A DNA stretch of 64,000 nt from Ulota crispa (lineage: Eukaryota > Streptophyta > Bryopsida > Orthotrichales > Orthotrichaceae), in assembly GCA_963920765.1 (NCBI GenBank), contig OY987249.1, positions 6,926,188 through 6,990,187 of the forward strand. Reading direction: 5' to 3'. Positions 2,027-58,496 of this stretch are shown in pieces. The translations under genes and the position numbers were made by a program. The notes under the pieces were generated by a model. That model saw nothing but the letters and a program-made list of their open reading frames with translations. It was not told where the DNA came from and did not search any database. The stretch's first letter is position 1; each line of letters opens with the position of its first letter.

Positions 2027-2414
2027 TTCCACGACCAATTTGCTCTCAAATTCAAATTCTCTACATGATCAAGTTGGCTCTTACAAGCTATCTGTGCAAT
2101 TTGGCATGCAAAGTGACTTTTCGATTAGGTGTAAACATTTCCGATGTTCGTATATTAGGTAAATTGGGAAAAAGAGTACATTCTGGGACTTTCACTATTT
2201 CTGTCATTATGTAAAATTCAGCATATTACAAAAAAAAATGAAAAAAGCATGCAGTTTCTTCTACGATATTGAAGTCTCAGTGATTTCCTGCAAGAATTTC
2301 AAATAATTTTCAAGTTTGAGCTATAGCTATGTATGTAAGATTAAGGTGGAGTACAAAATGGTACTTCCGTTTTTCCCAATTGATATAATATGGTGTTCTG
2401 TGGATTTCGTGCAG

Positions 2415-3727
2415 TCTATGCCCAAACGATTCGTCGTTGAACATGGAAACAAGTTTCGAAGGGCAGTGGAGTTGCGATCAGACCTCAGCGGCAACAAACC
2501 ATGGCCACAGCGGCTTTCCTTTTGCACTTCGAGGATTACGCCAGAAGTAATCTTTGCTGGTGCGCGATGGGAAAGGTTTGTGACCGCTCATGACCTCGTC
2601 CAAGGCGACAACCTCATCTTCTCCCTGACGGCCATGTCCCAGTTTCAAGTCTACGTGTTCGATGCATTTGGAAATCCCAAAGGACCTCAAACGCTACACA
2701 TGCCAATGAAATGGTCAGAAGCGATCAAACGGCCTCACGAGCGTCTTGCACTTGGCAAATCTGTGAAAAAAACGAGTGAAACCGCGATCTGTACAAGAAA
2801 CAAGGTAAAGTTTGAATTTGAGGACTTTGCTGGCTGTGATTCAATGATACTGCTAGCTAAACCTTATCTTTTGATAACATATTTTCAAAGTTTATAAGTT
2901 TCTAACTTCTTTGTTGTAAAGAATAAGCTTCTCCAATCGCTAGATTTAGCTCATTCATATGTTTCTTGTCATATGGTGCAGCAGAATTTTCTCTTAAATG
3001 GCGGTATACCATGCCTTCCAAGCTTCTCAAGGACACTGGAAGCCATCAACGTTCACCGTCTGGTGAGCTCCGAGGAAAACTCTGATTTGTGCTTCACCTG
3101 CAACATAAGAAAAGCATAATTGGCATGCTCAAAGAAGAATTGTCTAGGTCAAAAAAAGTAGATCGAAAAGCTGTCGAAATACTGATGTTATTTTTTATTA
3201 GAAACTTCATTTTATTCATATGATTGACTCAAGTAGATTGATGTTGTCTGTGAAGTAACGAGATTTTAGTTGTCTAGGTCAGAAATTTTCTGATCCAGTA
3301 TTTGACGTATACTTTTGAGTTAAATCTTTAGATACTACTCCGTAAATGCTTGTGCAACACTGATCTGTGAATGTAGGAAATTCCTAAACGCTTCGTGGCA
3401 GCATACGGGAGTCAGCTGCATGATCCTGTTCAACTTCAAGGAATTTATGACGAATCTCCAACACTGAACAATGTCCGATGCTTTTCCTACATATCCGAGG
3501 GACGTGACAGGATCCTACTGAAATGGGAAGATTTCGTGAGGAAGAACAAGCTTTGCGTTGGGCAAGAACTTCTTTTCACGCTCACTGCTGATTCATGCTT
3601 CACAGTTAGAGAGCAGATCTCTTGGAGCCCTCAAACCGGCTTGAATCTGTGTTCTCATGTATCAATGTCAGTCCAAAAATCAGGTGCTCAATCGTTGTCA
3701 ACTGGTTGTGCTCAATCAAAGAAGTAG
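2415..3727 (+). CDS. B3-domain transcription factor, two B3 domains
   Basis: A plant-specific B3 DNA-binding protein, probably nuclear and REM-like. Three exons fit with phase-0 junctions: 2415-2804, 2982-3062 and 3377-3727, giving at least 273 residues plus an unresolved N-terminus. B3 domain 1 is at residues 2-83, with MPKRFVVEHG, WERFVTAHDLVQGDNLIFSL and a closing VYVFD strand. A 75-residue linker follows. B3 domain 2 is at about 158-237, beginning EIPKRFVAAYG and containing LLKWEDFVRKNKLCVGQELL. The WxxF...L..G..L.F core is the B3 family signature. The acceptors at 2414, 2981 and 3376 and the donors at 2805 and 3063 are canonical. The start lies in an upstream exon, perhaps at 1865; ATG 2418 is a fallback. 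Family members usually bind DNA in development, but no target can be read here. Confidence 0.8.
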
Positions 3728-19254: not shown

Positions 19255-20919
19255 ATGGCGTATTATAAGAGCGGCAGCGACAGTGGCGGCGGGAGCCCCG
19301 GAGGTTCACCACCCGGGAGATCCACCTCTCGCACATACATGTGCAAAATCTGCGGCAACCTCTTCACCTCCGGTCAATCTCTCGGCGGCCACATGAACGT
19401 CCACCGGAAGAACCACTCGCCCCAGTCCTCCGCTCCGCAATCCTATGAAAACTACTACTCTTCCGGTGGAGACAACAATCAGTGGCAATCATCGTCATCG
19501 TTGTCGACTCAAGCGTACAAAGGAGTCCGGTTCCGCAAGGAGCAGAACAAGTGGGTTGCAGAGATCCGACCTCCGAAAGCGACGAATACGTGGTGGCTGG
19601 GCACGTACTCCACCCCGGAAGAAGCCGCTTATGCTTACGACGTGGCCATCACGTACTTCGGCAGTGAGTCCTCGCTCAACTTCGCTGGACACCCGACTTA
19701 TGAGCAGATTCCGCGGATCTCGACGGACTTGCAGCGACAGGACTACGCCGCCGAGCTGCGGAACGTGGTGAAGAAGTACGGGAAGCTCGCCATGGAGGCG
19801 GGCTCTACTGGTAAGGCAACCCATCGCTATAACCAGCAGAAGCTGTACATAGATTCATAATTTGCACAAATCTAAGGAAATACTTGCTAAGTTACTACCT
19901 CTATGTGTCCGTCTAAAAAAACGTCCAAAAAAGCTTCCTTGCTAAGGAGTCTTTGTGCATTCTCCATATACCATATGTATGCAAAATCTGCAATTTTGAT
20001 GTTGTCGTTTGGGCACCCGAATTCTACAGAAAAAAGTACCACATTTGTTGTGCATAGTTTGTGAATGCTGCCAACTCTTCGTTATTTTAATCTTTGTGTG
20101 ATAGTGACACAATTCTAGAGTCAATATACATACCATCTACCAAATGTATGCAAAATCTCTAGTTTTGATGTTGTTGTTTGGGCACCCAAAATTCATGCAA
20201 AAAACTTTAAAAAGTACCATATTTGTGTACATAGTTTGTATATGTTACTAGCTCCTTGTTATTTTAGTCTTTGCGAGCTAGTGTGACACATGCATTCTAG
20301 AGTCAATAAACCATCTACCAAATGTATGCAAAATTTCTTGCTTTGATGTTACTGTTTGGGCACCCAAATTCCATGCAAAAAGTACCCAGATTTGTGCATG
20401 CTACCAACTCATCATTGATGACTTAAAGACTAATAGCAACAGTGATACCGGGCCATATGGGGGCAAAGGCCAAGCTTGACAGGATAGAAATGCTCTGTAA
20501 TTGCTTAACTTGCACCCCATGAGATCATTGAACAATGGGAAATGCATTCTTAGCGTTTGAAATCAGGAAAATGGAAATTTTTTTAGTGGTACAAGAAATG
20601 TGTCTGATGATTTGGAGCTTTTTTTAGAGGGACAGAGGGAGTAACTGTTTGCTTCGGTGGTGGTGCAGGTGGAGCGTCAACTCCAGCGACGGGTGAAGCG
20701 CAGGAGGAGCTCGGGTGGGAGGATTTTCATCCGCCTCCGGAGAATTCTGCTTGCGCTGCGACAGATTACAGTCCGTTTGATTTCGAAGAGACGACTGGCA
20801 CCACGCAGCCTCCGGAGTCCAGTTATCAAGTTTCAGATTACGATCAGACGAACTCGTACTACGGCCACGGGTACCAGCAGCATTATGGTTGGCCTCCTTA
20901 TGATCCTAAAGATTATTAA
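19255..20919 (+). CDS. SUPERMAN-type C2H2 zinc finger fused to AP2/ERF domain
   Basis: A predicted nuclear transcription factor of 268 residues from two exons, 19255-19810 and 20669-20919 (donor G/GTAAGG, acceptor GTGCAG, phase 1). The order is: Gly/Ser-rich start; one C2H2 finger at 28-54 (C30, C33, H46, H50, with SGQSLGGHMNVH, a variant of the plant QALGGH core); a Ser-rich linker; an AP2/ERF domain at 88-145 (YKGVRFRKEQNKWVAEIRPP, then WLGTYSTPEEAAYAYD and LNF); a helical patch around 164-180; and an acidic, Tyr/Pro-rich tail with WEDF and FDFEE, a plausible activation region. Both DNA-binding domains lie in exon 1, so the fusion does not depend on splicing. The start is ATG 19255, with Kozak-like ATGG and an upstream in-frame stop. 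Each family is common in plants; I do not recall this combination as a standard class. Confidence 0.85.
19895..20641. mobile_element. Stowaway/mariner-like element inside the intron
   Basis: The left end CTACCTCTATGTGTCCGTCT and right end AGAGGGACAGAGGGAG are inverted relatives of the CTCCCTCTGTCC end typical of plant Tc1/mariner (Stowaway) MITEs, each followed inward by an A- or T-run. TA lies on both sides (19893-19894 and 20642-20643), the expected target site. It fills most of the 858-bp intron and contains tandem repeats. No transposase. Confidence 0.65.
19966..20420. repeat. Tandem repeat, about 2.7 units of 165-176 bp
   Basis: Three successive blocks begin near 19966, 20131 and 20307 with an ATGTATGCAAAATCTC-like motif. 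They continue with TTTGATGTT, TTTGGGCACCC and AGTACC segments in the same order. The units differ by substitutions and small indels, so the array is not recent. It lies inside the Stowaway-like element. Confidence 0.75.
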
Positions 20920-22815
20920 CAGATTTAAGACTCTTTTTCTGACCAAGTTGATGTCCTGAATTGTGCCAGTTTGGAGAGCCAAAGTGGATTTTTTAACGTG
21001 GATTCTTCAATTCATCTCAACCATGGCCAAGGGGCAAGTTCACGTGCTCTTTGTGTGACGTGGATTTTAGCTTATTTGGAAAAAATCGAGGGACTAGGAC
21101 AGAGCTGAGTATATTTTGTTGATACAGAGGAATAGAGGACGGGTAGTGACTGTCCCTGATGTATTCATGTTATAAAGTTAAGTTAGCTACTGCAATGGGT
21201 TCAATGTCGTTTTAGGTGTATCGCAGTTATCAGATGTATTGTGCTGTGAGTCTCACCCAATCTTACCTGGGGAGGTAGACTTTTCAAATCCACTACTGTA
21301 GCCGATTAGCTTAATTTTCCGTGGTAGTGCTAGAAGAGGTGATATCTAAAACTCTATTATTTTAGATTTTTATGGAAGTGTAAATCCGACAACAAGGCTC
21401 GATTTTTGTACGGAGTATACACTAAATTAGACGCAAATGCCCACGACTACCTAGTTGGACCATTTTTTGGCCCTAAAACCAAACTTCTTGTTATCGACTT
21501 TTATTTCAATCCCAATCTTTTTTGTACTGTCATAGAGAAGATCGATTTACTACGTGAACACTTTGAAGCTGAATGAATAACATTCTGATAGTGAAGGTTC
21601 TAACTTCTAATAGAGAAGTGAGTAAATTTGCAAGTGAGGTGGTAGAGTTTAATTCATTGAAAGTATGTATGTGAAACAGCGGTCATAATTTGGGGCACAT
21701 CTTGCAGTAAAATACGAAGTGGTCGAGGCATTGTACTAATATACGCAGGCAAGTATATGGTTGTATTGTTCAAAAGAAATGAGTTACAGCAGAGGAAGAG
21801 GCTTCAAATTCACTGTAAGAAACTACTAACTTATCGATGGAACATGACACTCTAGACGTTCAGTTGACGTAGCTCTGTTTACAAAAGAATTTGAGTTAAT
21901 TGGATCAAAAAAAGACATATCACTGCCACTCTAAGGGCACAATCTCAAGACACTTGTGCTTCTAAATGTATTGACACATGCATTCACAACAATGCTGGCA
22001 AAGTTCCAACGAGTACCATAAGAGTTGTTGGGATATAATGCCCATTTTGCAAATTCAAATTCGAATGTCTAAAAAAACTAATTGAACTTAAGAATGCAAT
22101 ATCTTCGTAGAAAAAGATAGACAATATAATAGAGAGATATCAATAACAACTGGTTCACTGCGGATATGACAAGAAAGACACCATTATCTTCAAGCGTTTC
22201 ACGGAGGACGTTGCCCAATCAATTTCGTTCACAACATGAGAGACATCTCTGGAGTATATAAAGAGCGAAAAATTTACAGTGTGTGCAATTTAGGACAGTT
22301 GAAAGAATGTTACAACTCCAATTATCTGATGCAGACTCTAGGCAGAAAGAACAAGAGAACGTCATAAAAACCACAAATTAGCCAACTTCATCATCTATTC
22401 ATAGGAGATGGTCAACACAGTACGAGAGATTTACATTATGTAGGATATCAAGGGATATACTTTATAATGGCCAGCGTAACAGTAGCTGGTACTCAACATT
22501 TCGATTGACGAACGTCAACGCAAAATCTACAAGCTAATTCTACCTCGCAAGGGTATTTGCTAGTTAGTGTACACAAAGACGGTACTCAGGAACAAAAAAG
22601 CATGTACAATCAATTCAGATTGTCGTCTCAAAAAAGCACTGCGAGAGACATAGTTGCGCCAGTGTCTAAATGCACAACAAGAGTACCTGATAGCTGACCG
22701 TCTCAGTATTCCCAGGGATAGTGGTAACTTCAAAAAAATGATCGACAGATAACGCCTTCTATTTACCCAATTCTCGGACGTCATCAAGCTCTTCTAAAAC
22801 CCAATCCCGCGGTCT
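20920..22815. other. Spacer between ERF and Hsf genes, with their 3' regions
   Basis: The two genes converge here, so both 3' UTRs should lie in this stretch. No other gene or repeat was recognised; short frames lack domains. Confidence 0.4.
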
Positions 22816-25432
22816 TCACCCAGGTGCAAGCTGCCCCATTCTAACAGATAGCTGGTCGACACTAGGCTTCTTCGACCACCGGTTTTTCGCATCCCCACCA
22901 TCTTCATCATGTAAAACCTCCACATAATTCTCCAACGCCTCATCTCCATCCGCTTCACTGCTGTCCGCGCCTAACCCTAACTCCTGCTCTAGTTCCTGAC
23001 CTAACTCCTGGTCTGCTGCTGATGGAGTCTCGCTTAAGAACTGCTCCCAGAATATATCATTCGCACTTGACACACCTGGGCTGCCCATGTTTGATATCCC
23101 TTCCTCTCCATCAGATACAAGCCTGCCCCCATCAATATGAAACTCCATCGGCTCTCCAGAAAGATCCTCTAATTTCACTTCCCCGGAATGGTACTTACTC
23201 CCATTCTCCATACTAAGCGCACCTGATCCCAAACCTTCCGAAAGTCAGATAAAAAGAAGCATTTCTTTCAATCCAATCTCACTTGATCATGAAAGCAGCA
23301 AAAACCATCATCGTTACGAAGCACAGACATCCAAATAGCATCTGATACCAACAGACTAGTCCAAATCCAGTTGGTGCAACAAAAACCATATCTCCAACAA
23401 AATATATTATAACTCAAAAAGGCAATCGACAAATCAAGGAATTAAAGTGACAAGGCAGGGTTTCCCAGAAGACAGAACCATCCTACTTAGGGTATGTTCA
23501 CACTCAGTGTTAAGAGTGGTAGTAGCCAAGGACAATTAGATGCATTTAAACACACTTCTAGACTGCTAATATCCCTCCTAACACCAAGTGTGAACATACC
23601 CTTAGTCATACAGCAACATACCTTCTAGCCTAGGGATTCGCGCTGCCAGATGTGGAGGCATTGGCAGATCCGAATGTGAGTGTTCCATTGACCCATCCAT
23701 CACCACGGGACTGCCATATCCCTCCTCCATCCCTCCCGCGTTCATCTCAGTCAGCGTCACGCCTGACTGCCGGTTCAGTGCACCCACGTCCGGCCCCGAA
23801 GGCGCCGACCCCAGGTCCCTGAACAGCGCCTCCAGAGGCCCGCTGTCCAGCCCGGGAGCCGATGCGTCCTGCGACGAGTTGAAGAACTGCATTATCAACG
23901 ACCGAGCCGCGTTCGACTCCGCTGCCGCGCTCGACTGGAAAGCCACGATCTGGTTGTTCGCCGTCGTGTCCCCCGAGCTCATCGAATCGTCCGCGCTCAT
24001 CGAGTCTTGCTTCGGCAGCCGCCGCTTCTTTCGCACGCTCGCTGCCAGCCTCTTGCTCTCCGACTGCTGCATCAGCTGCGCCAGAAAGCTCGGGTTCTGC
24101 ATCGCTTTCGCCAGAAACGACATCATGTGCTGCTGTCGGCTCTCCGTTTTCAGCAGCCGTTGGCCCATCCCCTGAACACAAGGTTTCGCATTCCTCAGCA
24201 AGCACGTCAACAAAGACATCTCGAGTACCTTGCTCAGACCTCCACATACATAACACAATCCAGTGAGGCAATTGCCGCATGCACTATCGTAACATAAGCA
24301 ACGACTCTGCAGACCACATGAAGACAGATGCTCAATAAACAATCTGCCTCTTGTTACCACATTCTCGTACCTGCATCTCCCGGTCCGTGTTCTGCTGCTG
24401 CTGCCTCAGTCGAACCAGCTCCGCCATCAGCACGTTCTTGTCCCTCTTCAGCATCTCGATCTCCCCTTCCAGCCCGAACTTCCCCACCTCCACGCACGCC
24501 CCCATCGGCCCCTGCTCGCTCAGCAGCTGCTGGTGCTGATGCTGGTGCTGGTGCTGCGGCTGTGTCGATGGCTGCGAATGCGTCGCCGGTTTCCGCCGAT
24601 GGATGCTCCGCAGCAGATCGCGTCTCCCCCGCAAAAACCCCTCGTTCGCAAACTCCCACCGATCCGGATCCACCTTCCGGAAGCCCTGCACCCATTTCCA
24701 TCAACCGCGTGCCATCAACATCAGCCTCCAAGTCAAGAACTCTCCAATTTCCAGCACAAACTACCTCCACGCCCTCGACCTGCTCCAAGGCGCATGCCAA
24801 CTGGATACACGAAAAAAAGCATGACAACGCCCCTCCTCCCCTGCTCAAAATTCAGCACCAAAACGCCACTGCTCTCGTCGGCCATCGGCCGACTCTGCGT
24901 CCACTATCACACAGCCTAACATGTTTCACTAGCTAGGGTTTGCCACCTCCAATTCACACCCTCCGCTCTCAAAACAGGACCGTGCCACGATTCTGACACC
25001 GCCACCTCATGCCTCTACTGCGCTCTCGCTACATCGACCATGCCTCATCGTCCTCTCTCGGACCTCCACACCACCACCAGCACCCCGACTTACATAGGTG
25101 TTCAGTTGCCGCACGAAGCTCGAAAAGTTGTTGTGCTTGAAATACTTCGGCAGCAGCTCCTGGGCGAAATCCGGCGGGTTCCACACGATGAAGCTGTTGT
25201 TGCCGCTGCTCCACGACACCACCATGTCCGTCGCCGGGTCGTCCACCATGTCGTACGTCTTCGTCAGAAACGGCGGGGGCGCCGTGCTCTGCAACCCGTC
25301 CATGGGCTGCGGCGCCTGCCCGCCCACCACGCCGGACAACGTCGGCACCACATCCGAACTCATCCGGTCCTGCCCCATGCTCTCTTCCAAGGAAGGCCAA
25401 TGCGGATCCGCCTTCACCACCTGCGACACCAT
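22816..25432 (-). CDS. Heat-shock transcription factor, class A1 (copy 1)
   Basis: Activates heat-stress genes as a trimer bound to heat-shock elements; shuttles between cytosol and nucleus. Four exons on the minus strand: 25432-25094, 24685-24371, 24171-23622 and 23222-22816, giving 536 residues. The DNA-binding domain is at 53-147 ([35 protein letters not shown]), with the first intron after NTY, the site conserved in Hsf genes. The HR-A/B coiled coil is at 184-252 ([45 protein letters not shown]) with the class A-type extended spacing. The nuclear localisation signal is VRKKRRL at 264-270. The aromatic-acidic AHA activation motif is [11 protein letters not shown] leucine-containing C-terminus ([11 protein letters not shown]) fits an export signal. 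The last exon lacks four residues (QELE unit) found in copy 2. Start ATG 25432 has a good context. All junction phases agree. Confidence 0.9.
23490..23601. mobile_element. Small Tourist-like MITE in Hsf copy 1 intron 3
   Basis: A 112-bp element with inverted ends GGGTATGTTCACACT and AGTGTGAACATACCC and a perfect TTA on each side (23487-23489, 23602-23604), the target site of PIF/Harbinger (Tourist) MITEs. A relative is at 40926-41048 in the corresponding intron of copy 2 but at a different distance from the exon. Confidence 0.75.
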
Positions 25433-25509
25433 GGTTCTCCCTGCCACGGATCACTCCCGCGACCCCTCCATGCCCTCAATTCCCGACAAACCCCTCGGAA
25501 AGAAACAGA
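23608..25509 (-). repeat. Large inverted repeat, left arm (Hsf)
   Basis: Inverted copy of 38649-40550 (paired positions sum to 64158). Over 1902 bp I found no difference, including introns 1 and 2 and the untranslated bases before the ATG. Beyond 25509 similarity drops to scattered matches with a roughly 12-bp indel, and beyond 23608 it ends abruptly next to a MITE. Confidence 0.9.
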
Positions 25510-26022
25510 CGTCCCGCAGTGCCCTGCGGCAGCTGAGTCCAGTACACCAATCAATTCTCGTCAAAGAACCGACTCCCATCAAAACATTCCCGACCAAATT
25601 CTTCCTCAATCCAACATCAAATTGCTCCTGCCTGGTTTTGCACTTCAACAGCGTTCCGACACTATCATCCGGCAACAAGAGCAATTCCGTGACAACCACC
25701 AGTTCGGACACGTCGGCTGCAACCCTAGCTACACCGACACGGCAGGAAATCGGTAGAAAAGCGGATTCCGACACTCGCAACGGCCACGGGGACGTAGAGA
25801 TTGGGAGGAGATGGTGGAGAGATTGGGAGATTGGGCATGTGCGTGAAACCCTAAGGAAATGCAGAGCAATGAGTCTGTCGTCGAGAATATATCAAGGGAA
25901 CTGCAGTTTATCGAGTGTGACGGTTCTCGGGCCGCCACCTGTGCGTTGTCTATTCGGTGGGCTTTTCCGACGGGGCCGGGAGGCTCTTTATATTTATACT
26001 ACAGTATAAGGAGAACCGGTAT
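25510..26022 (-). promoter_or_regulatory. Promoter and leader of Hsf copy 1
   Basis: A GC-rich leader upstream of the ATG, with diverged similarity to the leader of copy 2 up to and including a CCCTAGCTACACCGACA patch. A TATAAATA box lies on the minus strand at 25991-25998. I saw no clear array of heat-shock elements. Confidence 0.5.
25991..25998 (-). promoter_or_regulatory. Candidate TATA box of Hsf copy 1
   Basis: TATAAATA on the minus strand (TATTTATA as written), 560 bp upstream of the start codon, at the edge where GC-rich leader changes to AT-rich intergenic DNA. A transcription start near 25965 is inferred. Confidence 0.5.
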
Positions 26023-37726: not shown

Positions 37727-38648
37727 AAACTAGGTTTGCAGGGGACGAGAGCAGCAAGTAGCGCAACAGGGCGTGAAGTTCCCCTGCAACCCGAAAGGTT
37801 TGAGGGCTTGCACTTGCATTGCAACAAATCACAAGGGTACATTTGGCGTTGCAGTGTGAACAATGTTTGACATGGATCATGAAGGGGGTAAGGAGAAAGC
37901 TTAAATTTGACGTGAAAGTGGCCAAGCATGAAAAGCCTCGCTCCTGCACATGGACAAGTATAGTGCTCTTGGAGACTCAAATCGCAAAAGCCCTTATGGG
38001 TGGAACTCAAAGGGCTGTGTGTGCAGGACATGCTGCTACTGGGAATTAGGATCCCGTGGCCGGTAATTTGCAGGGCCACCGAGAAGGAAAAATGATGTAA
38101 AATAATTTCATCCATCCACACGAAACATCATTATGGCCCGTAAGGCCGTAAAGAGGACCACTATTGTACAAACCTTTTTTCGCCGCCGAAGGGGCCGGCG
38201 TCGACGCGTCCGACGGGCCCACACGATGTCACCGTCATCACAGCCCACCACAAACGCCCTGCACGTACAAACGCAAACAACATGCACTCCTCAGCACAAA
38301 TTAGGGTTTCACGCATTCAGCCAATTCCCAATTCTTTCCGTGCTACCCCGGCCAATCCCCAACTCCGTTACATATCCACGTCGTTGCTGCTTCTGGCGAA
38401 ATTCCGTCCCCTACCGATTGGGAGGCATGTCGGTGTAGCTAGGGCGAAAGTCGTGCTGTCCACGGTGGTGTAGTGCTTGCCACGGCATCGCTCTCGGAAT
38501 CGCTAGTCATCGAGACAAGTGATGGTGGTCAGCATTGTCAGAGCAATTTGATGTCGGATTGAAGGAGGATTTGGTCGGGAATGTTTTGATGGGAGTCGGT
38601 TCTTTGACGAGAATTGATTGCTGTACTGGACTTAGCTGCTGCGGGACT
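37727..38648 (+). promoter_or_regulatory. Upstream region and leader of Hsf copy 2
   Basis: GC content rises sharply from about 38130 (CGCCGCCGAAGGGGCCGGCG). Scattered matches to the leader of copy 1 appear from roughly 38420 onward. No clear TATA box or heat-shock-element array was identified. Short frames here have no domains. Confidence 0.4.
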
Positions 38649-40550
38649 TCTGTTTCTTTCCGAGGGGTTTGTCGGGAATTGAGGGCATGGAGGGGTCGCG
38701 GGAGTGATCCGTGGCAGGGAGAACCATGGTGTCGCAGGTGGTGAAGGCGGATCCGCATTGGCCTTCCTTGGAAGAGAGCATGGGGCAGGACCGGATGAGT
38801 TCGGATGTGGTGCCGACGTTGTCCGGCGTGGTGGGCGGGCAGGCGCCGCAGCCCATGGACGGGTTGCAGAGCACGGCGCCCCCGCCGTTTCTGACGAAGA
38901 CGTACGACATGGTGGACGACCCGGCGACGGACATGGTGGTGTCGTGGAGCAGCGGCAACAACAGCTTCATCGTGTGGAACCCGCCGGATTTCGCCCAGGA
39001 GCTGCTGCCGAAGTATTTCAAGCACAACAACTTTTCGAGCTTCGTGCGGCAACTGAACACCTATGTAAGTCGGGGTGCTGGTGGTGGTGTGGAGGTCCGA
39101 GAGAGGACGATGAGGCATGGTCGATGTAGCGAGAGCGCAGTAGAGGCATGAGGTGGCGGTGTCAGAATCGTGGCACGGTCCTGTTTTGAGAGCGGAGGGT
39201 GTGAATTGGAGGTGGCAAACCCTAGCTAGTGAAACATGTTAGGCTGTGTGATAGTGGACGCAGAGTCGGCCGATGGCCGACGAGAGCAGTGGCGTTTTGG
39301 TGCTGAATTTTGAGCAGGGGAGGAGGGGCGTTGTCATGCTTTTTTTCGTGTATCCAGTTGGCATGCGCCTTGGAGCAGGTCGAGGGCGTGGAGGTAGTTT
39401 GTGCTGGAAATTGGAGAGTTCTTGACTTGGAGGCTGATGTTGATGGCACGCGGTTGATGGAAATGGGTGCAGGGCTTCCGGAAGGTGGATCCGGATCGGT
39501 GGGAGTTTGCGAACGAGGGGTTTTTGCGGGGGAGACGCGATCTGCTGCGGAGCATCCATCGGCGGAAACCGGCGACGCATTCGCAGCCATCGACACAGCC
39601 GCAGCACCAGCACCAGCATCAGCACCAGCAGCTGCTGAGCGAGCAGGGGCCGATGGGGGCGTGCGTGGAGGTGGGGAAGTTCGGGCTGGAAGGGGAGATC
39701 GAGATGCTGAAGAGGGACAAGAACGTGCTGATGGCGGAGCTGGTTCGACTGAGGCAGCAGCAGCAGAACACGGACCGGGAGATGCAGGTACGAGAATGTG
39801 GTAACAAGAGGCAGATTGTTTATTGAGCATCTGTCTTCATGTGGTCTGCAGAGTCGTTGCTTATGTTACGATAGTGCATGCGGCAATTGCCTCACTGGAT
39901 TGTGTTATGTATGTGGAGGTCTGAGCAAGGTACTCGAGATGTCTTTGTTGACGTGCTTGCTGAGGAATGCGAAACCTTGTGTTCAGGGGATGGGCCAACG
40001 GCTGCTGAAAACGGAGAGCCGACAGCAGCACATGATGTCGTTTCTGGCGAAAGCGATGCAGAACCCGAGCTTTCTGGCGCAGCTGATGCAGCAGTCGGAG
40101 AGCAAGAGGCTGGCAGCGAGCGTGCGAAAGAAGCGGCGGCTGCCGAAGCAAGACTCGATGAGCGCGGACGATTCGATGAGCTCGGGGGACACGACGGCGA
40201 ACAACCAGATCGTGGCTTTCCAGTCGAGCGCGGCAGCGGAGTCGAACGCGGCTCGGTCGTTGATAATGCAGTTCTTCAACTCGTCGCAGGACGCATCGGC
40301 TCCCGGGCTGGACAGCGGGCCTCTGGAGGCGCTGTTCAGGGACCTGGGGTCGGCGCCTTCGGGGCCGGACGTGGGTGCACTGAACCGGCAGTCAGGCGTG
40401 ACGCTGACTGAGATGAACGCGGGAGGGATGGAGGAGGGATATGGCAGTCCCGTGGTGATGGATGGGTCAATGGAACACTCACATTCGGATCTGCCAATGC
40501 CTCCACATCTGGCAGCGCGAATCCCTAGGCTAGAAGGTATGTTGCTGTAT
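38649..40550 (+). repeat. Large inverted repeat, right arm (Hsf)
   Basis: Inverted copy of 23608-25509, 1902 bp without a visible difference. It covers the last 77 bases of the leader, exons 1-3, introns 1-2 and the first 14 bases of intron 3. Confidence 0.9.
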
Positions 40551-41858
40551 TGTAGTCAGTGAAAATATTTTGGATGAAGTGGCCTTAGCTTTTTTTCTAG
40601 GCGTAAAATGGTTGAGTAGCAAGGATGGCTATATTTTGTTTACAAATGTAAAGTTGGATGCTTTCAACCTTTCATCAAAGTTAAATCTCATGATGGTTTT
40701 GTGAGAAAGTAGAATATTGCACTAGTAGGATGAGGCGACATCAAGTGGAACCCTAAAATCCGGGGCCTTTACTCCCAAACCCGTATATAAAAGTTGGCTA
40801 AATATTTTACGTTTTTTCAAAAAGTACTATAGAACAGTTAGCCACACCAATTTTGGTGTAGCAAAAAAGCGATAATTAGCACAAAACATTTTCACTGATT
40901 GTAGTTGTGTTATCTGCTTAGCTTGGGGTATGTTCACACTCGGTGTTAAGAGTGATAATAATGAAGGAAAATTAGATGCATTTGGACACACCTTCAGACT
41001 GCATTGATATTGCTAATACCCCTGCTTATACCAAGTGTGGACATATCCTTAGTTTGAAGTAGTGTGCTTAGGCCCACTAGTGCTGGACTCACTTTATGAG
41101 GGCTGATTCTCTGCTTCATCGGTTTCCTTGATTTCTTTTCAGGGTAGTTTGTTTCTTGATTGTGGAAGTTCATGTTAGCGATGTGGTTATTGGGTGTTTT
41201 CTACTGCACCTGCTATTAAAATGACTAGTGTGAAGGATATTGTTAGTTTCTTATGGGTTTCCGAGCTGCACATTATGAAAGTAGTTGTGGATGAACGCCG
41301 GTGAGGTTTAGATATAGTGAAGATGAATTCTGGTAAGGTAATTTGGGGTTAGTTTTTGGGAAAGGATGACCTCTTGTGGAATATGGACCTTGTTTTTTAC
41401 CAGGACGATTTACTGATCGTTGGGCTCTGTTTGGACCAGGTGTGCTCAGTAAGGAGAACAGTGGCAAATACTTGAGCGGGGAAGTTAAACCCGAGGATCT
41501 CTTTGGAGAACCGATGGAGTTTCATGCCGATGGAGGCAGATTTATATCCGATGGCGAGGAAGGGATTTCAAACATGGGTAGCCCAGGTATGTCAGGTGCG
41601 AATGATATATTTTGGGAGCAGTTCTTAAGCGAGACTCCATCAGCAGCAGATCAGGAAGTAGATCAGGAATTAGAGCAGGAACTGGAGCAGGAGTTAGGGT
41701 TAGGCGCTGACAGCAGTGAAGCAGATGGAGACGAAGAATTGGAGAATTCCGTGGAGATCTTAGGTGATGAAGATGGTGGAGAAGCGAAAGACTGGTGGTC
41801 GAAGAAGCCACTTGTTGACCAGCTGTCTGTTAGAATGGGGCAGCTTGCACCTGGGTAG
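38726..41858 (+). CDS. Heat-shock transcription factor, class A1 (copy 2)
   Basis: Paralogue of the minus-strand Hsf at 22816-25432. Exons 38726-39064, 39473-39787, 39987-40536 and 41440-41858 give 540 residues. Residues 1-401 are identical to copy 1: DNA-binding domain 53-147, HR-A/B 184-252, nuclear signal 264-270. The last exon is only about 84% identical. The AHA motif [10 protein letters not shown] is at 457-466, and the C-terminus [11 protein letters not shown] is kept. The QELE repeat has one extra four-residue unit here. Intron 3 (903 bp) is longer than in copy 1 (399 bp) and I could not align it. Both copies keep every functional region, so both look active; divergence in activation-domain surroundings and promoters could give different regulation. 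Confidence 0.9.
40926..41048. mobile_element. Small Tourist-like MITE in Hsf copy 2 intron 3
   Basis: Ends GGGTATGTTCACACTCGGTG and AGTGTGGACATATCC, relatives of the MITE at 23490-23601 but diverged. The flanks are TTG and TTA. It lies 390 bp after exon 3, against 20 bp in copy 1, so either the intron was remodelled or the two insertions are independent. Confidence 0.7.
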
Positions 41859-42305
41859 AGACAATTTGGAATGGGTGCGGAAGAGTATGCTGTATGACAT
41901 ATGCAGGGGATTAGAGGGGCTAATTCTATTCGTCTCATTGATTTTGCTGCCTTTAGGGTAAAGCACCGTTTTGTTCCGTATATTTTTGTGACGATGACTG
42001 GAAGGGACTGTTTGTGCATTTCCATCTTGGGAGTCGGCGCAGTGTATACTAACTAGTAAATACCTTGTCCAGGTACAGTAGAATTAGGTTAGAGGTTTTA
42101 CTTCGGTATTCATGAATTGAAATGATGAATACCGGTTTTGTATCAGTAGAGTGGGCTGTGACCATTCATAAGGATTTCCTTTCACTTGTCGTGACTTACA
42201 CAGATTGAAGTCTGTACCATTCTTGGTATTAGTGATAATTTTTTGAAATTTGAAATTCGATATTCCATGTTTATCCTCAACAATTTGTCATCGTCTGCAC
42301 ATATC
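41859..42305. other. 3' region of Hsf copy 2
   Basis: Non-coding sequence after the stop, presumably the 3' UTR and spacer up to the next transposon. Confidence 0.4.
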
Positions 42306-50878: not shown

Positions 50879-51702
50879 ATGTCGATGTTCTTAAAAACCT
50901 CCTGGACGGCCAAGGGAATGATGTTGGGTTTACTTGAAGACCCCCGCATGGTGTAAGTCTTGTCACTTGCAATTTTTCCATAAGCAAAAACAGTGCCTGA
51001 TACATATAATAGAAATTATAATATACATGCTACAAACAATCTAAAGACATAAGAATTTGAAGAAGTTTAGGGTTTTGAAAAATAAAAAGAAACAACCAGT
51101 GGACAGCCTAGAGAACTTGTAACTAACTCCACATCTTAATGAAAAGTGACAAGACTAAACTTAAGGCAAGAACTTTCATAAGTTGTAAAAAGCCTAGGGA
51201 TGTAGTAGACTAAGACTAAGATTTAACATGGGAATAGGAAACTAACCATTGAACCCAATGATTGCCGATGTGATGATATCCTTGATGTGAGTTTCATAAA
51301 TTTTCAAGGTTGATGACTCCGGGTCAAATACTTTGTCTGCAATATTACAACATTAGCCAAATTCTTGCAATCAGAACCTTGCATTCCTTGTAAAATCTAG
51401 TGAAAAGACTACCAAGGAACCATGACCTATGCCGTAGAGGCCTCATGTAAAGTCTCATATGCAAAGACATTTATGAGAACCTCCTCACTTTCTTCAAGGC
51501 ACTAAGAATTGAAAAATCTTACATAGGAGGCTATGATTGTAAGAGAGAAATGCTTACCAAACATGTAAGATTGACCAAGAATAGGTGCTCCTATGGAATC
51601 ACAGAGACAGATAGAATTTGAACCAAGCTTCCATGGTATGCCTACGGTTACTTCCGCTTCACTTAGAGGCCGCACTTTTAAATATACAAAAATATTCTCC
51701 AT
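50879..51702 (-). pseudogene. Kinesin-7 5' fragment, exons 1-3 only
   Basis: Minus-strand exons 51702-51558, 51336-51247 and 50996-50879 mirror exons 1-3 of the kinesin at 57673. They encode MENIFVYLKVRPLSEAEV, then DKVFDPESSTLKIYETHIKD, then GTVFAYGKIASDKTYTM. Homology stops at the end of exon 3; no later motor exons follow. As a third of a motor domain it cannot work as a kinesin. Confidence 0.8.
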
Positions 51703-52802
51703 GTTACCTGTCCCCTCTGCCCCTCTTACACTCCGATTACAAACATTCACTCCCTCTCCCACTGCCTCTTGTGCTCCCAACCACAAAAAGTTGCTTTCTC
51801 TCTTATTCACTCCTACACTTCAACTTTGGCAATGGCACCCGCCCATCCCCCTCCTTCCTACACTCCTACTTCATACTTTGGCAATGGCGCCCACCCATCA
51901 AGGTGGATGCCAGCGTTCCTCTGCCCATTGAGGTAGATGCTGACGCTTCTTAGTCCATTGAGGTGAATGCCGGCGCTCCATTCTTAACAGAAACATCTAC
52001 CGATGACGCTCCAAGAGTTCAAGGATTAAACAGTAAATTTCTGACAATGAAATTTTTGAAATTGCTCCCTTAACCAAGTACTACCGGCAAAGCCAATTCA
52101 TAGCTTTTGGATGGAAAGCTAACAATGTGGTTGAAGAGAAAAAGCATTTCTTCATCCATTTTTTCTCTAGTTGACCTTTCATGGTGGACTATGAAGAGTA
52201 CCCAAGTAAATTTGTGACCTTATTAGTTATTGTCTTCACATAAATGAGAAGTTAGTCAAAAAAAACAAATTACAAACTACGCTATCTTTAGTGTATTGGG
52301 GGAAGTTGCTACTCCTTACTCTAAATCTAAAATATCTCTACAAAATTGATATTGTGAATTTGAGTCCAACTAACAAAATGAAGGTCCTCTACTCTAGGTT
52401 CTACTCCAATTGGAATTTTCAAAAACTTAATAATATTAAACATTTAATTACAATTTGAACTTTGGATGTATTTCAATGTCTTCTACATTCTAATTATAGA
52501 ATGACATGGAAATTAAGTTTGTACCCTAATGTTTGTTACTACAACGTATACACACAATGAAATTTTCAGATTTTTTTAATGAATTTTCTATTAGATGTGA
52601 TTTTTCTTCACTTTTTTTTTTCAAAAACTCTAATAATAATTGATTTGTGTCAAAAAAATCCAAATTTTTTGTAAAGCAAAGAAAATATGTTATTTCATTT
52701 CTACAAAATAATTTTAAAAAATTTCATGTAAATCCAGTTCCAAATGGTATGAAGTTGAGCAATGTCAGTAAGCCTTAAATCAATGGTTATAGGTCCATCC
52801 TT
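50879..52802 (-). repeat. Large inverted repeat, left arm (kinesin 5' end)
   Basis: Inverted copy of 56573-58496 (paired positions sum to 109375), 1924 bp. I noticed one difference, a C in an A-run near 52269. The arm holds three kinesin exons with introns, the upstream region, and a TTAA-flanked element at its inner end. Confidence 0.9.
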
Positions 52803-57301: not shown

Positions 57302-58496
57302 TTAAGGGAGCAATTTCAAAAATTTCATTGTCAGAAATTTACTGTTTAATCCTTGAACTCTTGGAGCGTCATCGGTAGATGTTTCTGTTAAGAATGGAGC
57401 GCCGGCATTCACCTCAATGGACTAAGAAGCGTCAGCATCTACCTCAATGGGCAGAGGAACGCTGGCATCCACCTTGATGGGTGGGCGCCATTGCCAAAGT
57501 ATGAAGTAGGAGTGTAGGAAGGAGGGGGATGGGCGGGTGCCATTGCCAAAGTTGAAGTGTAGGAGTGAATAAGAGAGAAAGCAACTTTTTGTGGTTGGGA
57601 GCACAAGAGGCAGTGGGAGAGGGAGTGAATGTTTGTAATCGGAGTGTAAGAGGGGCAGAGGGGACAGGTAACATGGAGAATATTTTTGTATATTTAAAAG
57701 TGCGGCCTCTAAGTGAAGCGGAAGTAACCGTAGGCATACCATGGAAGCTTGGTTCAAATTCTATCTGTCTCTGTGATTCCATAGGAGCACCTATTCTTGG
57801 TCAATCTTACATGTTTGGTAAGCATTTCTCTCTTACAATCATAGCCTCCTATGTAAGATTTTTCAATTCTTAGTGCCTTGAAGAAAGTGAGGAGGTTCTC
57901 ATAAATGTCTTTGCATATGAGACTTTACATGAGGCCTCTACGGCATAGGTCATGGTTCCTTGGTAGTCTTTTCACTAGATTTTACAAGGAATGCAAGGTT
58001 CTGATTGCAAGAATTTGGCTAATGTTGTAATATTGCAGACAAAGTATTTGACCCGGAGTCATCAACCTTGAAAATTTATGAAACTCACATCAAGGATATC
58101 ATCACATCGGCAATCATTGGGTTCAATGGTTAGTTTCCTATTCCCATGTTAAATCTTAGTCTTAGTCTACTACATCCCTAGGCTTTTTACAACTTATGAA
58201 AGTTCTTGCCTTAAGTTTAGTCTTGTCACTTTTCATTAAGATGTGGAGTTAGTTACAAGTTCTCTAGGCTGTCCACTGGTTGTTTCTTTTTATTTTTCAA
58301 AACCCTAAACTTCTTCAAATTCTTATGTCTTTAGATTGTTTGTAGCATGTATATTATAATTTCTATTATATGTATCAGGCACTGTTTTTGCTTATGGAAA
58401 AATTGCAAGTGACAAGACTTACACCATGCGGGGGTCTTCAAGTAAACCCAACATCATTCCCTTGGCCGTCCAGGAGGTTTTTAAGAACATCGACAT
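56573..58496 (+). repeat. Large inverted repeat, right arm (kinesin 5' end)
   Basis: Partner of 50879-52802. It ends two bases before the donor of kinesin exon 3, after which this side continues through the rest of the motor domain. The right side is therefore the parental gene and the left side the derived copy. Confidence 0.9.

Follow-up and report, generated by a model that had tools for sequence, protein, structure and literature searches.

A C2H2 finger and an AP2 domain in one moss protein of Ulota crispa and in its paralog

The locus and its gene model

The analyzed window, a stretch of 64,000 nucleotides from the moss Ulota crispa, carries at 19255-20919 on the forward strand a gene whose 268-codon frame, closed by a stop, encodes a C2H2 finger and an AP2 domain; it is located on C8 of the 274.8-Mb assembly. 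The LEAFY DNA-binding exon of this genome matches PDB 4bhk, from Physcomitrium, at 104 of 106 residues (E 9e-73), ahead of the next entry at 7.4e-51 and of the Arabidopsis entry 2vy1 (PROTEIN LEAFY) at 2.6e-49, which bears out a moss origin. Exon 1 (19255-19810; residues 1-185) is an open frame that runs to an in-frame GT donor at 19811 and holds the N-terminus, the finger, a linker, the AP2 domain, and the post-AP2 region. The finger (residues 28-52, 19336-19410; CKICGNLFTSGQSLGGHMNVH) matches Pfam zf-C2H2_6 (PF13912) at 33.1 bits (E 5.1e-8; cut-off 25 bits). A Ser/Gln/Tyr-rich linker (residues 53-87, 19411-19515) leads to the AP2 domain (residues 88-145, 19516-19689; RFRKEQNKWVAEIRPP), which includes WWLG and YAYD and is matched by PF00847 over residues 88-132 (profile positions 3-48 of 54; 45.3 bits, E 1.1e-11; cut-off 33.3 bits), an alignment with AtERF1 extending it to residue 144; a conserved extension (residues 146-182, 19690-19800) follows. 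The initial annotation had placed both domains in one uninterrupted exon, with finger residues C30, C33, H46, and H50 and an AP2 domain starting at residue 88, and translation bears this out: the coordinates and residue numbers are correct, no stop intervenes, and each domain scores above its Pfam cut-off.

The 858-bp intron proposed in the same annotation (19811-20668) has GT-AG borders and yields the 268-residue protein, and to that extent it stands; the choice of acceptor is uncertain because other AG sites also keep the frame. With the 19811 donor, eight such sites lie in 20617-20698, the chosen 20668 included, and an alternative donor at 19845 can be joined to 20627 without loss of frame. 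Where exon 2 begins is thus not certain, the 20668 acceptor requiring RNA for its proof; as modeled, exon 2 (20669-20919) encodes an acidic-aromatic tail of 83 residues and the stop. If the intron were retained, the exon 1 frame would end at 19858-19860, and the product, a possible dominant-negative, would keep both DNA-binding domains but not the acidic tail. Residues 48-87 contain no in-frame Met, and a start at Met47 would halve the finger; a late-start product with the AP2 domain alone, if made, would begin within the finger.

Elsewhere in the window, a frame with a B3 DNA-binding domain occupies 2316-2897 (+), and two heat-shock-factor (HSF) genes, at 23608-25519 (-) and 38639-40550 (+), stand in mirror orientation. 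They are 100% identical over 1912 nt, whereas the blocks that flank them (22812-23232 and 41430-41862) are only 83-86% alike, which points to a recent duplication of the core or to gene conversion. Matching frames at 51505-51950 and 57425-57870 form a second mirror pair, and one of them resembles the start of a kinesin motor. AP2 genes on C3 also form mirror pairs of equal score (20924352/20943048 and 20927658/20939733); genes paired as palindromes may be frequent in the U. crispa genome. An Rfam search of the window returned no match.

A paralog with the same arrangement

When the genome is searched with the window protein, a single further match covers the finger as well as the AP2 domain; it lies at C5:15659163-15659720 (60% identity, E 1.8e-64). 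This paralog, on another contig, is an uninterrupted frame of 367 residues in which both Pfam domains score above cut-off and which reads straight through the position of the window-gene intron. Since a second gene has the identical arrangement, the C2H2-AP2 combination is not due to chance. The paralog keeps 21 of 25 residues in the finger, 47 of 58 in the AP2 domain, and 23 of 37 in the post-AP2 extension, against 5 of 32 aligned residues in the linker and 25 of 83 in the tail. Measured as the fraction of sites that changed (NG86, custom script), the divergence of the finger (pS 0.701, pN 0.168) resembles that of the AP2 domain with the region following it (pS 0.598, pN 0.146), while nonsynonymous change is far higher in the linker (pS 0.864, pN 0.648) and in the tail (pS 0.887, pN 0.47); synonymous change approaches saturation, which makes the duplication an old one and the ratios rough. 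These values indicate that the finger and the AP2 domain are held alike by selection while the linker drifted.

Between the window and the paralog locus, only two coding blocks align at E <1e-10; two non-coding matches of 18-23 bp have E values of 0.1 and 0.3. Of the window genes, the HSF pair was compared across the genome, and none of its five matches lies near C5:15.66 Mb. In the 9.5 kb at L042, further short frames match as well. An alignment of the two proteins against virus and prokaryote contigs, a comparison uninformative on other mosses, produced no relative.

How unusual is this arrangement within the genome? Profile searches give at least 64 AP2 matches, on the order of other mosses, for which parts of two surveys report 75 AP2/ERF genes in Syntrichia (PMC10094499) and 83 in Bryum (PMC6275083). 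In all, 85 distinct AP2 places were found and 78 were read; the seven omitted, on C3 and C5, are duplicates in mirror or tandem arrangement. A loose C2H2 pattern occurs in 2 of 79 AP2 reading frames, those of the window gene and its paralog, although 54 of the frames were read from short stretches and 18 of those are cut off at their N-terminal side; the other members of the AP2 clade described below show no finger in the frames scanned. Genome-wide, zf-C2H2_6 has 10 matches, of which two, in the same pair of genes, lie within 300 bp of an AP2 domain and the next nearest is 198 kb off; strongly altered fingers may escape both searches. The part of the literature searched contains neither a description of this architecture nor a match to the QSLGGH finger sequence. 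It likewise names no class for it, in agreement with the initial annotation, whose suggestion of a lineage-specific protein we rate as plausible; the combination may already be listed somewhere as a domain architecture. Judged by the two sequences, the presence of both DNA-binding domains in one moss protein is real and maintained.

Affinities of the two domains and the tail

The finger had been called SUPERMAN-type, and the likeness holds: in a phmmer search, PDB 1njq, the SUPERMAN finger, matches residues 25-54 (E 8.1e-6). The assignment weakens at closer range, since the single finger is not a close copy and reads QSLGGH where SUPERMAN-type fingers read QALGGH, a change at the Ala that passages of PMC11117814 number as helix position 3, among the positions contacting DNA bases. 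It has 13 of 22 positions in common with the SUPERMAN-type fingers of L036 and L037 and 12 of 22 with L040 and L039, and also 13 of 22 with one finger of the two-finger, ZAT-like L038, so no single donor of the finger stands out. By comparison, the window and paralog fingers have 20 of 22 positions in common, which fits a single fusion preceding the duplication; the paralog keeps all four zinc ligands and GGHMNVHR as in L036 and L037. Few basic residues stand behind the finger in either protein (RKNH in the window protein, RGGDARR in the paralog), whereas L036, L037, and L040 carry RRERA there.

The absence of an EAR repression motif, also claimed at the outset, is confirmed in that neither LxLxL nor DLNxxP occurs in the window protein or the paralog. 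LxLxL is found in the finger frame at five of the six other Q-type finger loci (L036, L037, L038, L040, and L041), three of which (L036, L037, and L040) finish in a DLELRL-type motif; the sixth, L039, is a short frame of 82 residues that has none. The single-domain AP2 relatives nearest to the fusion carry DLN motifs (DLNMP in L012, DLNKVP in L013). True membership in the SUPERMAN group was rejected because of QSLGGH in place of QALGGH and the missing C-terminal EAR motif; a weak basic flank and the added AP2 domain are further differences, although the protein shares with SUPERMAN-type proteins one N-terminal finger ending in GGHMNVHR.

The AP2 domain belongs to the AP2/ERF superfamily, the paralog scoring 44.1 bits against the same cut-off, but it is not a standard ERF. 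The RxRxWGK/R that marks the YRG element of ERF and DREB proteins (RxRxWG is present at 45 of 78 AP2 loci) gives way to RKEQNKW, an extra acidic residue is present, and EIRPP stands in place of the ERF/DREB ending. An ordinary ERF or DREB was rejected on these grounds, and the suggestion that the fusion aims the finger at “ERF targets” becomes doubtful. The wider idea in the initial annotation, that a repression-linked finger was redirected by the fusion, is a conjecture with partial support. Passages of PMC9520294 describe a moss-specific AP2/ERF clade (PpERF24 and relatives), in many members of which an additional E appears (RxRPELG/NK/R) and EIRP stands for EIREP/EIRVP. The window domain shows both features in its YRG element and so carries published moss-specific signatures as far as that source defines them; by type it is no ordinary ERF or DREB. 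What the window gene and its paralog have beyond this clade is the N-terminal C2H2 finger and motifs of their own, WWLG and YAYD, each present at 2 of 78 AP2 loci, these two.

A tree built from this genome only (65 of 79 domain rows, with AtERF1 added and with L075 and all rows shorter than 52 residues left out) pairs the window and paralog domains at 100/98 and places them within a 25-row clade at 97/85; it rests on few columns, and 24 of its 62 inner branches are left open. Every locus in the tree that has the acidic insertion (16 loci) or EIRP (10 loci) falls in this clade, 6 of whose 25 rows have neither signature. At C3:13.02-13.09 Mb, long frames carry a series of diverged AP2 domains (FNGVR...VYFG), and the two copies read from this array, L089 and L092, fall in the same clade. 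TEM1, a named AP2/ERF and B3 protein, is among the matches of the window protein. RAV proteins join AP2 to an unrelated second DNA-binding domain, B3, placed after it; here the second domain is a C2H2 finger and precedes AP2, and with no B3 match in the window protein a RAV identity was rejected.

The tail is acidic and aromatic, as first described: its 83 residues include 15 acidic, 1 basic, and 14 F/W/Y. In pairwise alignment, ELGWEDF (20707-20727) faces EIDWDDI of the paralog and SPFDFEE (20770-20790) faces TPFDFEM, so that W-(E/D)-D-(F/I) and PFDFE recur in identical order in both copies. The tail alignment score was equaled by 41 of 2000 shuffles, and that of the linker by 52 of 2000; evidence for homology of the tails is modest. 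From its composition, an activating role of the tail is plausible.

Possible function and the relation to IBSH1

We think it fairly probable that this is a nuclear gene of a moss for a transcription factor with two DNA-binding parts. An ancestral fusion would have set a Q-type (SUPERMAN-like) C2H2 finger before an AP2 domain of the moss-specific kind, and the fused gene would have been duplicated afterwards, with the finger and AP2 retained in both copies. In AtERF1, the Trp of RxRxWG contacts DNA; its replacement here suggests an altered specificity, and the AP2 domain would dock on an element unlike the GCC box or the DRE. The finger, held on a flexible linker, would read a few adjacent bases and make binding more specific or tighter; activation of transcription would fall to the acidic-aromatic tail. 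A lone finger, as work on SUPERMAN indicates, requires a basic flank; a second reading head would excuse the weak flank seen here. The same reading takes the two genes as the probable counterparts of IBSH1 and its partner in Physcomitrium patens.

Passages of PMC9520294 name the YAYD motif for two P. patens proteins, Pp3c1_32440 and Pp3c17_13620, given as examples and not as the sole carriers, and count both among five proteins outside the clades of that study. Window gene and paralog have this motif, which is only four residues long. Pp3c1_32440 is IBSH1 (ISSUNBOSHI1), a regulator of the hypergravity response and of chloroplast size, and in PMC12266102 all eight hypergravity-induced AP2/ERFs, both YAYD genes included, fall together in a cluster of moss proteins only, marked by an Asp/Glu insertion; the two sources thus place the YAYD type differently. 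Like the window gene, the two P. patens proteins have a single AP2 domain, YAYD, and the acidic insertion (PMC9520294; PMC12266102), and IBSH1 behaves like an activator: its overexpression phenocopies 10g, reproducing chloroplast size and gametophore number, and a fusion to the SRDX repressor has opposite effects and suppresses the response, as an activator would predict; the protein is nuclear and cytosolic (PMC12266102). By description they differ in the finger, since neither the passages of PMC9520294 nor the main text of PMC12266102 mentions one, “zinc finger” and “C2H2” having 0 occurrences in the latter, and IBSH1 may accordingly be without it. With two named YAYD genes in P. patens and two here, orthology is likely, not proved, and on sequence the window gene and its paralog probably correspond to Pp3c1_32440 and Pp3c17_13620.

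If the finger is conserved, must it bind DNA? It could instead be a surface for dimerization or other protein-protein contacts that recruits a partner, leaving AP2 alone to pick the targets. Ser in place of Ala at helix position 3, a determinant of DNA recognition in passages of PMC11117814, and the few basic residues behind the finger speak for such a surface, while the retention of the four zinc ligands and most other finger residues, including the GGHMNVHR shared with L036 and L037, speaks against it; we regard this as unlikely, though it is the strongest of the alternatives. That the protein represses, either because the finger keeps SUPERMAN-type repression through an unrecognized motif or through competition with activators for common sites, is in our view improbable: the LxLxL of five of the six other Q-type finger loci and the DLN motifs of L012 and L013 speak for it, but both fusion proteins lack LxLxL and DLNxxP and have the acidic-aromatic tail, and if IBSH1 is the ortholog, the added SRDX reverses its effect (PMC12266102).

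Two further explanations deny the finger a function or the gene its integrity. The protein might be an ordinary moss AP2/ERF in which the finger is a passenger of the fusion without a role, as the fingerless relatives in its clade would allow; this is very improbable, given that nonsynonymous change in the finger is as restrained as in AP2 and the linker between them is barely conserved. An error of the gene model, in which two genes or a pseudogene were taken as one, draws on the uncertain start of exon 2 and is scarcely credible: a single stop-free exon holds both domains in two genes on different contigs, with a purifying pattern, and pseudogene and model error were rejected for this reason.

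A bolder extension of the reading favored above, which we advance tentatively and hold somewhat doubtful, is that the IBSH1 group as a whole forms an unrecognized class of composite factors, in which a SUPERMAN-like finger and a moss-specific AP2 domain would bind a two-part DNA site and activate the genes behind chloroplast size and shoot formation, the finger having been overlooked because the proteins were classified by AP2 only. In plants, most transcription-factor families are recognized by one type of DNA-binding domain; few proteins join two types, and RAV is the textbook case. If mosses maintain a C2H2-AP2 fusion, it would add to these few two-domain plant factors and, if it belongs to the IBSH1 group, the finger would offer a molecular handle on target choice in the control of chloroplast size, photosynthesis, and the response to gravity.
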